A stretch of 26,806 nt of DNA from a virus. The stretch spans positions 1-26,806 of the IMG/VR virus record IMGVR_UViG_3300038701_000729; one strand, given 5' to 3'. The number at the start of each line of letters is the position of its first letter. The first letter of the stretch is position 1. The notes below the pieces were generated by a model that was not told the DNA's origin, searched no databases, and saw only the letters and a program-made list of their open reading frames with translations. The position numbers were made by a program, and so were the translations under genes. Below, one piece after another: positions 850 through 13,215 of this stretch.

Positions 850-2376
850 CTATCGGGCGATTCTTTGCCACAAGCTCTGCTTTTTCTGCTTTGGCTTGCG
901 GTCGAAGACATTAAAGTTGCGGCTGGCTACAGTCGGAGCTGCTGGCTTTTGACTGTTGATAAGCGCCCTGCCCTCGCCCGCACCCAGCAACATATACTGA
1001 AGCGCATCGTGAACGTGAGAATACATGTTCTTGTCTGGCTTGTCGGCGTAGCGTTCGCCGCTCACCTCCATGCGCTTGTAGGCATAGCCGCCCTCAAAGC
1101 CTTTGATCAGCATAGAACAGCGACGGTCGATAAGAAACGCAGGCTTGCCCTCAGCCATTTTCGTAAGCTGAGAAGACACAGACTCCACTCGTAGGTCCAC
1201 AGAGTTGGACGGCGCAGGGAAGGCCCTGAGGCCAGCGCCCCTAAGAATCTGGAACGGCGTGGACTCGTCAGTCTGCGCCCGGAAGTCACCAGCCGGGTCA
1301 CCATAGATGACAGTCTCGGAGCAGGCTTGGAACCGTGTAGCCAGCTCGTTTCTCAACACTTCGGCAAACCTGACAATGCCCATGTCCACAGCCACAATCT
1401 CTGACTGGACAAACCACCGCCCCCTCACCTTCTGGCCGAATGTGGCGGAGGGTGTCAGGCCAAAGTCTAGGCCCACATAGACTGGCAGCCCAGCGGCAAT
1501 GGGTATTTCTTCCTTGGCGATATGGGCTTCCGCAGAGAAGGATGGATACACAGGCTTACCGTCCTGAACCATGCCAAGACGGTTCATCACATACACATCA
1601 ATCCATGACTTCGTCTTACCCTGAATCAAGTTCGGGTAGTAAGACTTCATCATGTTCTTGGTGTTCTCGGCCTTCGGGTTTGGCTTGTAGGTCTCGATCT
1701 CGTTGTCTTCGTTCTTGACCTCGACCATCCCCGGAGGCTGGACATAGAAAGACCAGTTGTCTGGCTTCACCAGCATCTTCGCTTGCTCGCGCGGAATGTG
1801 GTCGGGAATCGGAACCTCGCCCGACATGATCGGCCACCAATGATCTTCTTCCGGCGCGTTGGTATCTGCGATGACGCCAGTCCAAGTCGGGCCTCCCTCT
1901 CGCATAGAAGGAAAGCGACCGACGCGCATTGTGCAGGCGTCAATGATGCTCTTGGGAACCTCCCTTGCCTCGTTAATCCAGATGCCAGTGAGTTCGAGCG
2001 ACAGCAGCTTCTTCACATCTTCCGGGCGATCAAGAGCAAGGAAGATCACCTCAAGCTCTAGGTCGCCCTTCTTAATCATGTGAGTGTAAGGGACCGACCA
2101 CGTAAACTTGCCCCAGTCATTCTCTGGAAACCAGTCAAGCCAAGTCTTGATGGTAGTAGTCCTGAGCTGAGGGTTGGTATTCCTGATGATAGCCCACCGG
2201 GAACGCCGAAGACCCTTGTCGTTCTTCTCTTGCTGAAGCGCCCTGCGAAACACCTCAATGCAGCAAGCCACCGACTTCCCGCTACCAACCGGCCCACGAA
2301 CGCCACGAAAGAAAGTGTCGTCCTTCATAAAGGACTTCAGCACTTCCCCGTCAGGCTTGTAGACCAGCTCTACCAA
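850..2376 (-). CDS. terL: Terminase large subunit (ATPase and nuclease)
   Basis: This is the DNA-packaging motor: it cuts the concatemer and pumps DNA through the portal using ATP. The 508-aa length suits the family. Visible motifs are Walker A GPVGSGKS at residues 28-35, a Walker B-like GIWINEAR at 131-138 with likely catalytic Glu136, and a C-terminal RNase H-fold nuclease with VGLDFG (Asp304), YGDPAGD (Asp360) and HVHDALQY (Asp457) as the metal-binding acidic positions. SWIDVYVMNRLG (258-268) is typical at the ATPase-nuclease junction. The usual Walker B Asp before the Glu is Asn here, as happens in some members. It overlaps the upstream small gene by 7 nt and precedes the portal module. 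Confidence 0.95.
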   Translation of the reverse strand: MVELVYKPDGEVLKSFMKDDTFFRGVRGPVGSGKSVACCIEVFRRALQQEKNDKGLRRSRWAIIRNTNPQLRTTTIKTWLDWFPENDWGKFTWSVPYTHMIKKGDLELEVIFLALDRPEDVKKLLSLELTGIWINEAREVPKSIIDACTMRVGRFPSMREGGPTWTGVIADTNAPEEDHWWPIMSGEVPIPDHIPREQAKMLVKPDNWSFYVQPPGMVEVKNEDNEIETYKPNPKAENTKNMMKSYYPNLIQGKTKSWIDVYVMNRLGMVQDGKPVYPSFSAEAHIAKEEIPIAAGLPVYVGLDFGLTPSATFGQKVRGRWFVQSEIVAVDMGIVRFAEVLRNELATRFQACSETVIYGDPAGDFRAQTDESTPFQILRGAGLRAFPAPSNSVDLRVESVSSQLTKMAEGKPAFLIDRRCSMLIKGFEGGYAYKRMEVSGERYADKPDKNMYSHVHDALQYMLLGAGEGRALINSQKPAAPTVASRNFNVFDRKPKQKKQSLWQRIAR

Positions 2377-3139: not shown

Positions 3140-3317
3140 TGCGACCAACCCTCATCAGCAAAGAACGATTCTGAGACGTCAACATCCCGCGCTGCTGCTG
3201 ACCAGTCCGAACATTCTTGTAAACAGGATCAAGACCCTCAGTCTCATCATCCCGCAAAGAAGGAAGAGGCCCATAGTCAGGCTTGCTAAAGCTCATCGAA
3301 CCACCGCCAAAACACAT
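3123..3317 (-). CDS. Hypothetical phage protein, MCFGGG N-terminus (64 aa)
   Basis: The reading frame is open further upstream, but the extension overlaps the DUF6321 gene and is Cys-rich in a non-native way. ATG 3317 overlaps the upstream stop as TGATG and has AAGGAG about 9 nt before it. The product begins MCFGGGSMSFSKPDYGPLP and ends GQQQRGMLTSQNRSLLMRVG. A Cys-Phe-Gly-Gly start followed by a Pro-rich stretch and a (S/R)xLLT-type tail is common in small podovirus structural-region proteins, from memory. No domain recognised. Confidence 0.72.
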   Translation of the reverse strand: MCFGGGSMSFSKPDYGPLPSLRDDETEGLDPVYKNVRTGQQQRGMLTSQNRSLLMRVGRNVSGK

Positions 3318-3631
3318 CAGCTCTTCTCCTTCGACTTGTTCCGGCGACTGATCGCAGCAGCCTTCCGCTTCGCATCCGCCTTGGAACTCGCACCCCAAGC
3401 CTGCAACGACTTCAACAACCGAGTCGGCTTGCCATCCTTGTCACGCTCAGGCCCCTTCATGTTCCCCATCCGAGCAAGAAAAGAAGCACGCCTCGGATTG
3501 TCCCCACTCTTCACAGGTGCCTTCAAATCACTCCCCGGATTCTCCCGCTCGTAACTACGACGACCCTTCTCGTTCAACCCACCAGACTCAGACTTACCAG
3601 CCTTCCGCTGCCAAGCAGGACTCTTAGCCAT
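3317..3631 (-). CDS. DUF6321 family protein (104 aa)
   Basis: The product begins MAKSPAWQRKAGKSESGGLN, followed by EKGRRSYERENPGSDLKAPV, RRASFLARMGNMKGP and KPTRLLKSLQAWG, the layout I know as DUF6321, a phage-associated family of unknown function. It is strongly basic, with a C-terminal Lys/Arg cluster. ATG 3631 has AAGGAG 7 nt upstream; the frame is open further back but without support. It overlaps the upstream 29-aa gene by 8 nt and the downstream gene by 1 nt. Canonical members end in a Cys-containing short tail; this one has a different, longer basic tail. Confidence 0.82.
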   Translation of the reverse strand: MAKSPAWQRKAGKSESGGLNEKGRRSYERENPGSDLKAPVKSGDNPRRASFLARMGNMKGPERDKDGKPTRLLKSLQAWGASSKADAKRKAAAISRRNKSKEKS

Positions 3632-3713
3632 TGGTAATCTCCTTAGCCTTCCAGACTTCAGGAACCCTACCATAGCGAGCAAGCATTTTCTTCACACATT
3701 CAGCAGCAGTCAT
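3624..3713 (-). CDS. Putative 29-aa peptide, first gene of the small-gene cluster
   Basis: Reads MTAAECVKKMLARYGRVPEV and ends WKAKEITNG. AAAAGG lies about 6 nt before ATG 3713. Its end overlaps the DUF6321 start by 8 nt (AATGGCTAA), the same coupling seen throughout this cluster, which supports it being translated. The sequence would form one amphipathic helix. The same frame is open upstream to 3818, but that part reads through the G-rich leader and looks non-coding. Unknown function; it may act mainly to couple translation to the downstream genes. Confidence 0.55.
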   Translation of the reverse strand: MTAAECVKKMLARYGRVPEVWKAKEITNG

Positions 3714-3779
3714 GATCGAACCTTTTTGGGAAAAAATACGAGGGAGGGACCTATAGTAACGGAGAGTGTTGCGATTTTT

Positions 3780-3803
3780 CCCCCTACCCCCCTCCCCTAC
3801 CCA
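3780..3803 (-). other. G-quadruplex-type motif in the minus-strand leader
   Basis: Read on the minus strand, this stretch has four separate G-runs of 3, 4, 6 and 5 Gs joined by loops of 2, 1 and 2 bases (TA, A, TA). That satisfies the usual G3+N1-7 rule for an intramolecular quadruplex. It would be in the RNA of the minus-strand transcript, about 65 nt before the first ORF and downstream of the repeated motif at 3860-3877. Folding is inferred from the pattern alone. Confidence 0.6.
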
Positions 3804-3859
3804 TCGTTGCTGGGGCATTTTTCTCCGGGAGAACTGAGAGACTCAGGTCGCTGTTACCG

Positions 3860-3877
3860 TCTTACACTTATCGAACA
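3860..3877 (-). promoter_or_regulatory. Repeated 18-nt motif, copy A (minus-strand orientation)
   Basis: Minus-strand reading TGTTCGATAAGTGTAAGA. It matches copy B at 4423-4440 in 17 of 18 positions; flanking bases are not conserved, so the repeat is compact. Both copies point the same way and each lies upstream of a minus-strand gene set. It could be a late promoter or an activator/repressor site; no -10 hexamer supports a standard host promoter. Confidence 0.6.
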
Positions 3878-3922
3878 CCTTCTTCTCAGCATCCCCAATG
3901 GACTAGGACACACCGTCAGTCA

Positions 3923-3940
3923 TGTTCCAAATGTGTAAGC
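3923..3940 (+). promoter_or_regulatory. Repeated 18-nt motif, copy C (inverted, plus orientation)
   Basis: Plus-strand reading TGTTCCAAATGTGTAAGC matches the motif of copies A and B in 15 of 18 positions, in the opposite orientation and 45 nt from copy A. The inverted placement fits a protein-binding site better than a directional promoter. It ends just before the small terminase stop codon. It is more degenerate than the other two and could be coincidental. Confidence 0.4.
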
Positions 3941-3941
3941 C

Positions 3942-4322
3942 CTAGTCGCCTAGGTCAATCGACACCCGGATGTCACCGGCAACCATCACTTGGCTTCTGT
4001 CGATGGGCTTATACCCAGCTCGGTCAAGGATATCTTGCGCAGCTTGAAGCTGAACGTACTCACTCTTAGCGCCCTGAGCGAGTCCTGCAACACGTTGAAC
4101 AGCCATCAAAGCATTCAACCCAAGCCTCTCCTGAGTGGCCTGAGCCATGTATTCCTGCACGTGTGGGAGCTTGAGCGTCTTGTAGGCTGTGACCTTGCCT
4201 GAGTCACCAGAAGCGTAGCCTGCCTTCTCTGCGGCTCTTGCGACTGAGCCACCTTCAGCTAGCAAGGTATCAACCAGAGCCTTCTGTTTCGTGGTCAGCT
4301 TACGTTTCACAGGCGTATTCAT
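3942..4322 (-). CDS. terS: Terminase small subunit (probable)
   Basis: A 126-aa protein that would recognise packaging sites and recruit the large subunit. LTTKQKALVDTLLAEGGSVA, then RAAEKAGYA and a following helix, has the helix-turn-helix layout of small terminases of the Terminase_2/TerS type; the second half is helical (ERLGLNALMAVQRVAGLAQG, EYVQLQAAQDILDRAGY), suiting oligomerisation. The open frame reaches 4388, but ATG 4322 follows AAGGGGGG at a proper distance and gives the expected N-terminus (MNTPVKRKLTTKQ). It is the first minus-strand gene from the divergent region and is separated from TerL by the small-gene cluster, unlike the adjacent TerS-TerL pairs of many phages. Confidence 0.75.
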   Translation of the reverse strand: MNTPVKRKLTTKQKALVDTLLAEGGSVARAAEKAGYASGDSGKVTAYKTLKLPHVQEYMAQATQERLGLNALMAVQRVAGLAQGAKSEYVQLQAAQDILDRAGYKPIDRSQVMVAGDIRVSIDLGD

Positions 4323-4422
4323 GAACACCCCCCTTACCCCCCTCTTATCCGCCTTGGAGGAAGCCCTGTCAATGCACAGGCTCAACATGTGCTGGCGTTA
4401 TTACGTCTGTTTCAGGGCCATC

Positions 4423-4440
4423 TCTTACACTTTTCGAACA
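4423..4440 (-). promoter_or_regulatory. Repeated 18-nt motif, copy B (minus-strand orientation)
   Basis: Minus-strand reading TGTTCGAAAAGTGTAAGA, identical to copy A except for one A/T change at position 8. It lies about 100 bases upstream of the small terminase start and points toward it. The leader between them carries two G6 runs, paralleling the G-rich leader downstream of copy A. Confidence 0.6.
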
Positions 4441-4493
4441 TGGGGTCTGAGTGCAACCATCAGGTGTGCGAATCACCTTGGTCCTCGCCTGTT

Positions 4494-4534
4494 CTGGAGT
4501 AGGTCTTGGAGTATTACAGTAAGGCTTAGAGTAT
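4494..4534 (+). repeat. Tandem GAGTA-type direct repeats
   Basis: Three similar decamers, CTGGAGTAGG (4494), CTTGGAGTAT (4505) and CTTAGAGTAT (4525), lie in a row. The last two are exactly 20 bases apart, about two helical turns. They are upstream of the first early gene and could be regulator sites or part of its promoter (the last GAGTAT would be a poor -10). Function is inference. Confidence 0.35.
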
Positions 4535-4784
4535 GGGGTTGAGGGCTTCTGAGCTGCCGCTCTTCATCTCTTACTCTCTCTGTGCAGGACGCACCCTCGC
4601 CGTCAGACTGGCATGGCTGAGCCACCGACAGTTCGCAACGACAATCCTCGCTTCCCCCTTCTATGCCTGCTCACTTGTCCTGTGTGGCTCTACGTTCTGC
4701 GTCTACCCGTTCGGGGATTGTCATTGCGAACTGCAAGCGCCGCCCTGCGGGCGTCGTCGGATGGCTCATCCATTGGTCTGACAT

Positions 4785-4803
4785 GGCGAGGGTGGTCCTC
4801 GCC
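4785..4803 (+). promoter_or_regulatory. Hairpin in the 5' leader of the first early gene
   Basis: GGCGAGG and CCTCGCC form a perfect 7-bp stem with loop GTGGT. No U-run follows, so it is not an intrinsic terminator. It ends 20 nt before ATG 4824, directly before the purine-rich ribosome site (GAGAGAAGAGAT). Such leader hairpins can stabilise mRNA or control initiation; which applies here is unknown. Confidence 0.45.
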
Positions 4804-4823
4804 CACAAAGAGAGAGAAGAGAT

Positions 4824-5372
4824 ATGACGAAGAATACTGCTCAGAAGCCCGCAACCCAGAAGAACCTTATCGAAGTAATCACCGAGACCCTGACCCAGAA
4901 CGAACAAGTCCTGCGCAACGGTGACTGGGTTCACACCGACGTGATGGCCTTCCAGCGCCGCATCATCTTCGAAGCGCTGATGGACAAGCTCGACTGGCTT
5001 ATCAACAGCCCCAAAGGCACCGAATCCTACGTTGCACAGACGCGCGAGCGCATCGGTCAGGCCCAGAAGCGTTACGTCGGGGACGAGATCAGCACGATGT
5101 TCCTGAAGGGCGCAATCGCTGAAGCCAAGGCCGCTCAGCTCAAGGACATGGCCCTCAAGAACCTGATGGACCAGCTGAACGCCGCCTACATCAACGACAA
5201 CGGCCAGAGCTACACGCCCTACGGTCGCACCAAGCGCTCGAACGTCCGCGTCGATGAACCCGCCGACATCCCCAGCGACATCGCCGCAGAACTCAAGGCG
5301 CTTGGCATCGCACCCGACCTCGGCACCACCGCCAACACGCAGGGCGTCGAAGATACCCGCGACATCGCGTAA
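4824..5372 (+). CDS. Early hypothetical protein, own transcription unit (182 aa)
   Basis: Not recognised. The protein is largely helical and Ala/Gln/Lys-rich, reading TQKNLIEVITETLTQNEQVL near the start, a central FQRRIIFEALMDKLDWLIN, and an acidic C-terminus (EPADIPSDIAAELKALG). No membrane segment or catalytic motif is visible. It is the first plus-strand gene, has a purine-rich ribosome site and leader hairpin, and is followed at once by a strong terminator (5381-5409), so it appears to be expressed as a single-gene unit. Codon use is more C-ending than the following small genes. First-expressed phage genes often act on the host, but that is only positional inference. Confidence 0.82.
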   Translation: MTKNTAQKPATQKNLIEVITETLTQNEQVLRNGDWVHTDVMAFQRRIIFEALMDKLDWLINSPKGTESYVAQTRERIGQAQKRYVGDEISTMFLKGAIAEAKAAQLKDMALKNLMDQLNAAYINDNGQSYTPYGRTKRSNVRVDEPADIPSDIAAELKALGIAPDLGTTANTQGVEDTRDIA

Positions 5373-12567: not shown

Positions 12568-13215
12568 ATGACACTTGGGAAATTGCGCAAGGCGCTGGAT
12601 GAACACGCAAAATGGATCAGGGGGGAGGGCGGAAGCTGTGCCGACCTGAGCGATGCCGACCTGCGCGGTGCCAACCTGCGCGATGCCAACCTGAGCGATG
12701 CCGACCTGAGCGGTGCCGACCTGAGCAATGCCAACCTGAGCTGTGCCGACCTGAGCGATGCCGACCTGCGCGGTGCCGACCTAAGCGATGCCAACCTGAG
12801 CGGTGCCGACCTGCGCGATGCCAACCTGAGCGGTGCCAACCTGAGCGATGCCGACCTGAGCGGTGCCGACCTGAGCGGTGCCGACCTAAGCGATGCCAAC
12901 CTGAGCGGTGCTGACCTGAGCGGTGCTGACCTGAGCAATGCCAACCTGAGCGGCGCCAACCTGAGCGGTGCCGACCTGAGCTGTGCCGGAGTTATCAACT
13001 GCGGCCAGCGCAGCGATGGGTATAATTTTTTCATCCACGTCACCGCAAAAACCGAGCCGATGCTGATCGCAGGTTGTCGGTATTTTACTTTAGAGGAAGC
13101 GCGAGAGCACTGGAACAAAACCAGACCCGAAGGCCAGCGCCTTGGTGACGAAAGCCGCGCTTTGCTTGACCACGGTGGGCGGATGCTGGGGATTTACCTG
13201 AAGGCCACGTGGTGA
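12568..13215 (+). CDS. Pentapeptide repeat protein, A(D/N)LSx type (215 aa)
   Basis: After a short basic N-terminus ([19 protein letters not shown]) come 23 uninterrupted pentapeptides A(D/N)L(S/R)x at residues 25-139, which should form a right-handed quadrilateral beta-helix. A conserved tail follows ([53 protein letters not shown]) that I have seen attached to phage pentapeptide proteins. Related helices (Qnr, MfpA) mimic DNA and bind gyrase; whether this one does is unknown. It lies in a GC-rich accessory block after the operon terminator. GGTAA precedes the ATG. Confidence 0.88.
12640..12984 (+). repeat. Tandem 15-bp repeat encoding the pentapeptides
   Basis: 23 consecutive 15-base units, close to GCCGACCTGAGCGRT, with only a few synonymous and D/N or S/R changes. 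The near-identity at DNA level, not just protein level, indicates recent expansion or gene conversion. Long open frames on other strands and frames here are by-products of this repeat. Confidence 0.92.

Follow-up and report, generated by a model that had tools for sequence, protein, structure and literature searches.

A cluster of four G-runs lies close to the terminase genes of the virus analysed here, and it raises the question of what such a sequence does at this position. The window, the whole stretch of DNA that we analysed, is 26,806 bases long, as is its source, a linear IMG/VR virus record. The initial annotation took the G-runs for an RNA G-quadruplex in the leader of the packaging genes that could slow ribosomes or polymerase, or act as a packaging signal.

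The four G-runs are present as described and are beyond chance. Read on the minus strand from 3802 to 3780, they are GGG TA GGGG A GGGGGG TA GGGGG (3, 4, 6, and 5 G). The canonical quadruplex pattern occurred twice in the window, compared to a mean of 0.39 in dinucleotide shuffles, and the strict form (at least 3/4/4/4 G with loops of 1-2) was found in none of 200 dinucleotide shuffles of the window. G5-G5 doublets were found twice in the window and 15 times in total over 200 shuffles. A second G-rich site, reported next to the terS ribosome-binding site, is also real (GGGGGG TAA GGGGGG, 4342 to 4328, minus strand).

The position of the G-runs needs to be restated. They had been placed in a leader, and they are in the intergenic space between terS and the gene for a DUF6321 protein, downstream of terS. 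On the minus strand, terS comes first, followed by the G-run region, a predicted 29-aa ORF, the DUF6321 gene, and terL. The genes and the second G-rich site are as follows.

850-2376, minus strand: terL, large terminase subunit, from annotation and relatives
3317-3631, minus strand: gene for a DUF6321 protein (PF19846, E=2.7e-24; phrog_4689), the next conserved gene past the element E described below
3624-3713, minus strand: predicted 29-aa ORF (MTAAECVKKMLARYGRVPEVWKAKEITNG), directly 3' of E, called from sequence only
3942-4322, minus strand: terS, small terminase subunit (Terminase_2), 126 aa from M23 of a 148-aa ORF
4328-4342, minus strand: terS-leader G-doublet, G6-TAA-G6, overlapping the terS Shine-Dalgarno sequence and outside E

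TerL of the window has Pelagibacter phage Hodr as its closest annotated relative (65%), and TerS matches Pfam PF03592 (Terminase_2) with 34.7 bits compared to a curated cut-off of 26.1. The solved structures nearest to the window TerS are the small terminases of PaP3 (6W7T, E=1.5e-4) and NV1 (7JOQ). The names of these phages come in part from PMC7672466.

Conservation and layout of element E

The G-runs are one end of a longer conserved element. We gathered relatives with TerL, TerS, and two DNA patterns as queries, and inspected the interval from terS to the next gene. Nearly all relatives had a doublet of G-runs, AAAA immediately after it, then a GTCCYYCACTCACATTTTTYCC-like block and AAAAGG. 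We refer to this arrangement, which is roughly 75 letters long and rigidly spaced, as E. Its family layout is G5-6, T or TA, G5-6, A4-5, about 20 variable nucleotides, GTCCYYCACTCACATTTTTYCC, and AAAAGG. In the window, its parts are as follows.

3716-3802, minus strand: element E as a whole, made up of the profile match (3792-3716; nhmmer E=5.9e-13) and two extra G-runs specific to the window
3780-3802, minus strand: G-block, with the A-proximal doublet G6-TA-G5 (3792-3780) as conserved core, from sequence and family comparison
3775-3779, minus strand: A-tract AAAAA abutting the G-block, the most conserved columns of E (sequence, profile, and alignment)
3752-3774, minus strand: spacer, variable in sequence and fixed in length, GTTACTATA here and GTTACTGTAATA in many relatives
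3728-3751, minus strand: right half, GGTCCCTCCCTCGTATTTTTTCCC here, with ATT 42 nt from the first A of the A-tract
3716-3727, minus strand: end of E, AAAAAGGTTCGA, here doubling as the Shine-Dalgarno region of the next small ORF

The ribosome-binding site of the predicted 29-aa ORF MTAAECVKKMLARYGRVPEVWKAKEITNG thus overlaps the end of E.

The geometry of E is fixed. An alignment of 63 diverse copies gave one nearly ungapped block of 78 columns, and the distance from the first A of the A-tract to ATT was 40-43 nt in 80/80 non-redundant copies. Mean information was 0.6-1.0 bit per column at positions -15 to +14 and +30 to +59, 0.25 bit per column in the 15 spacer columns, and 0.05-0.20 outside E; conservation ended at the edges of the element.

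The G-run doublet is the family-wide feature, and the form with four runs is private to the window. In the set of 78 non-redundant copies, two G-runs were present in 61, one in nine, three in six, four in one, and none in one; 63/80 copies had two runs that were each at least four G long. In several copies, the A-proximal G-run was replaced by C: L066 and L079 have CCCCCAAAAAC (CCCCC), L035 and L124 have GGTGGCCCC, and L134 and L136 have GGGGTACCCC. These replacements destroy any quadruplex and retain GC beside the A-tract.

The G-runs are next to certainly not an artefact of assembly or sequencing, nor drifting low-complexity sequence. G-run lengths differed by one or two among copies, and the end of contig L034, at its G-block, looks garbled, both as expected of such noise. 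However, about 80 non-redundant copies, drawn from many metagenomes and from cultured isolates, have the same block.

E is tied to terS. It was on the terS strand and 8-162 nt 3' of the terS stop codon in 174/174 copies with a readable terS, and insertion of small ORFs ahead of the DUF6321 gene, as seen in some loci, left E beside terS. We also scanned IMG/VR with a pattern for the right half of E only, using neither G nor terS. This blind scan recovered 31 true copies of E, found only beside terS: 30 of the 31 had a terS match, and the remaining copy is at the end of a contig that starts within the 3' end of terS. All 31 had the left block, as a G-doublet except for a single G-run in two.

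E is mostly present once per genome. The family profile (nhmmer) found a single copy in the window. We searched 18 whole records, 17 near-full IMG/VR records and Hodr, that may themselves be incomplete. Thirteen of the 17 had exactly one full match, one (G004) had one copy and a fragmentary second match (E=0.35), one (G016) had a partial match only, and the profile had no match in the other two. In Hodr, one copy was significant and two further matches were weak.

E is carried by a large group of marine bacterial viruses, most of them uncultured. The profile did not match MEP301, BcepC6B, Pmp11, or Pseudoalteromonas Y3, and there was no G-doublet with an A-tract near terL of Mx8, Rollin, or Rhizobium phage RHph_TM3_14A. 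We found no published description of E in a literature search conducted mostly outside subscription journals.

Alternative readings of E: RNA structure, transcription, and replication

An RNA G-quadruplex that slows ribosomes or polymerase is a highly improbable function for the G-runs. The window sequence fits the canonical pattern, and the original observation, as a reading of the letters, is correct. The check proposed for it was whether relatives keep the G-runs while the loops vary. The runs were indeed kept, as a doublet, but the canonical intramolecular pattern was possible in only 5/78 non-redundant relatives, and four runs were present in 1/78. The predicted stability of the RNA was no better than that of shuffles (z=+0.9), and the predicted fold can pair the G-runs with the C-rich right half of E. 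What is conserved is at the level of DNA spacing, a layout that continues for about 60 nt past the G-runs and has no RNA structure: there were no conserved or covarying RNA pairs and no RNA hairpin at E in the family alignment, and no Rfam match at E up to a value of 1. Nor did the proposal that G-rich leaders recur after both copies of a repeated motif generalise, as the G-doublet in the terS leader was present in 5/108 relatives tested. We conclude that the RNA-quadruplex reading is not supported by the comparison. Separately, we looked for inverted repeats around the G-block, and the best arms averaged 4.3 nt compared to 4.0 in shuffles, which is unconvincing.

We considered whether E could be a control site for late transcription. 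It would be an operator, or a promoter served by a phage-specific activator, terL and the morphogenesis genes would be under its control, and proteins would contact the G-block and the right half. E is ahead of terL and late genes in both phage groups (including the Ss1-type phages described below), two blocks at fixed spacing would suit an activator and RNA polymerase, and the spacer of many copies has a TACTGTAAT-like resemblance to a -10 sequence. However, the spacer, where a -10 would fall, is the least conserved part of E, and there was no match to a sigma-70 promoter (-35 and -10 hexamers) in 3500-4900. There is one copy of E per record, and its place in the main group is within the packaging cluster, 3' of terS, and not at the start of the late operon. 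We regard a control site as unlikely, though well worth weighing.

A start of replication primed by transcription is a less likely explanation than a control site. In such a scheme, the nascent G-rich RNA would stay paired with its template (an R-loop) or form a hybrid quadruplex of two RNA G-runs and two from the displaced DNA strand, as in mitochondrial CSB II, and the RNA, cut near the A-tract, would prime DNA synthesis. The conserved unit, in which an A-tract follows a sense-strand G-doublet, fits this scheme. But copies with a single run or with a C-run persist (L066 and L079, L134, L035 and L124) beside the 61/78 with two runs, the scheme does not predict a right half at a rigid distance of 41 nt, and the position of E is tied to terS.

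The G-tract of CSB II has a doublet form with A/T-rich sequence beyond it, and ColE1-type origins have a G-run upstream of AAAAAC. The G-tract of human CSB II is reported to be on the non-template strand and to form a hybrid quadruplex with the nascent RNA (PMC5027508), and the G-tract of E is likewise on the sense strand. Unlike CSB II, the phage element has C-run variants, and a hybrid, termination, and priming at E are hypothetical. As a phage counterpart of CSB II, E would form a hybrid or hybrid quadruplex when transcribed, and this structure would halt polymerase, prime replication next to the terminase genes, and so couple late transcription, replication, and packaging. Such a role seems to us slightly less probable even than transcription-primed replication in general.

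Proposed packaging role of E and known packaging sites

Based on its fixed geometry, its single copy, and its strict position next to terS, we infer that E is, on balance, a terminase recognition site (pac or cos) at which packaging starts on concatemeric DNA. A packaging signal had been among the functions suggested at the outset for the quadruplex; a spaced DNA architecture fits that suggestion far better than it fits the slowing of ribosomes or polymerase by a quadruplex. The ring of TerS would read the shape of the DNA at junctions between GC blocks and A-tracts. The left junction would be the G-run against AAAA, and the right junctions GTCC..CAC against ATTTTTT and then CCC against AAAAA, with a constant distance of about 41 bp (four helical turns) between left and right. 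TerS would then position TerL to cut in or near E. This reading also draws on TerS and on the make-up of E: TerS is a Terminase_2 protein related to TerS of PaP3, which binds packaging-site DNA, and E provides GC/A-tract junctions at fixed phase while tolerating G-to-C swaps beside an unbroken A-tract.

One site for comparison is that of HK97. Binding of HK97 TerS needs an A-tract in the channel of the ring beside a C:G bend, and flipped A:T pairs are tolerated whereas GC within the A-tract is not (PMC10370121). Recognition depends on the A-tract, the C:G pairs, and the bend, and the orientation of base pairs in the tract is minor, as at E, where the G-to-C swaps of L066, L079, L035, L124, and L134 are beside an invariant A-tract. 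The two differ in arrangement. HK97 TerS has a single 15-bp site that is 15-29 bp from the cut (PMC10370121), whereas in E two blocks are separated by about 41 bp, and the element is 3' of terS in the main group.

Among solved structures, TerS of PaP3, a Bruynoghevirus, is the closest to the window TerS (6W7T; PMC3488191, PMC7672466, PMC8540360). PaP3 TerS binds cos-containing DNA and stimulates TerL (PMC3488191). The cos of PaP3 is disputed, as its sibling, phage Delta, has terminal repeats of 182 bp in place of a cos (PMC8540360). Bruynoghevirus differs from the family described here in that the family profile detected no copy of E in the Delta genome, and its termini are either a 20-nt cos or the 182-bp repeats. 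We also considered the cos of P2 (GGCGAGGCGGGGAAAGCAC...GTATTTTTTC), which has a G-rich block followed by an A-tract, and a TATTTTTT block with its ATT 33 nt on. The anatomy is alike, but the right-half score was p=0.25, and we dropped P2 cos as evidence of homology and treat it as a resemblance only.

Similar layouts are present near the terminase genes of several cultured podoviruses. Cronobacter phage Ss1, Vibrio phages VA-RY-3 and PVA7, and Microcystis phage Mwe-JY08 have a G-doublet, AA, and an ATT-like block in this neighbourhood. The G-doublet is unlikely to be due to chance in the three loci tested: its chance expectation was 0.002 for Ss1, 0.002 for VA-RY-3, and 0.046 for Mwe-JY08, and the right-half scores were modest (p=0.04, 0.08, and 0.003, respectively). 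In Ss1, VA-RY-3, and PVA7, the element reads GGGGGAGGGGGTAA and then CACGC.[AG]TTTT at about the offset found in E; compared to E, the offset is 36-37 nt rather than 41 and the A-tract is shorter. The Ss1-type element is 5' of the gene in the terS position that precedes terL, whereas E of the main group is 3' of terS; E is therefore always ahead of terL, as a late-gene control site would be. Mwe-JY08 has a 40-nt version of the layout, 3' of a TerS-like ORF.

We looked for signs of genome ends at E. Contig ends, which here are those of metagenome contigs rather than of virion DNA, formed no peak within E or around it, and contigs had no common first or last base there, as they would with fixed ends. 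Nor did any near-full contig run from E to E. With no cluster of contig ends at E, no genome terminus was seen there, and these data do not distinguish a cos site with fixed cohesive ends from a pac site that starts headful packaging. Our literature search on the physical ends of Ss1-, VA-RY-3-, and Hodr-type phages and of BcepC6B found nothing useful. We also compared the divergence of E with that of the neighbouring proteins. The distance correlations were r=0.41 for E and TerS, r=0.49 for E and TerL, and r=0.32 for E and the DUF6321 protein. The divergence of E tracks that of TerS only moderately and that of TerL, a better clock, slightly more closely, and the test therefore does not point to co-evolution with TerS in particular.

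If E is a packaging site, it provides a sequence handle on the start of packaging in an abundant and mostly uncultured group of marine podoviruses. It would then mark the orientation of the genome and the likely start of packaging in metagenome contigs, and its roughly 80 natural variants could be used to test the reading of DNA shape by ring-shaped TerS.

Other sequence features

Several other features were found in the window and in the related loci. The motif TGTTCGAWAAGTGTAAG occurs three times flanking terS (3861-3877, minus strand; 3923-3939, plus strand; and 4424-4440, minus strand), compared to a chance expectation of 0.16 in the window at up to three mismatches. It is possibly an operator. 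L082 has TGTTCGAWAAGTGTAAG upstream of terS and an inverted copy just past terS, and a search for exact matches found one other viral contig, L157. The ribosome-binding region of terS is a doubled TAAGGGGGG-like unit (G5-8 TAA G5-8), shared with a few relatives only (L082-L085 and L260). The divergent region upstream of terS contains an inverted repeat (4629-4733) with 22-nt arms that are 91% complementary and 61 nt apart. The early gene block, which is oriented rightward, contains a gene for a pentapeptide-repeat protein (12568-13215, plus strand; Pfam E=4.4e-44).

The sequence TGTGCGTT is strongly strand-biased in the loci, with 194 occurrences on the plus strand and 28 on the other, compared to about 23 expected per strand, counts that are inflated because the loci overlap. 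It is possibly a phage late promoter or an RNA signal. It is found in many loci, for example at L066:727, L068:4404 and 7526, and L030:7548, and is often in the leaders of late genes, sometimes ahead of AATATTTTTTT and a ribosome-binding site.
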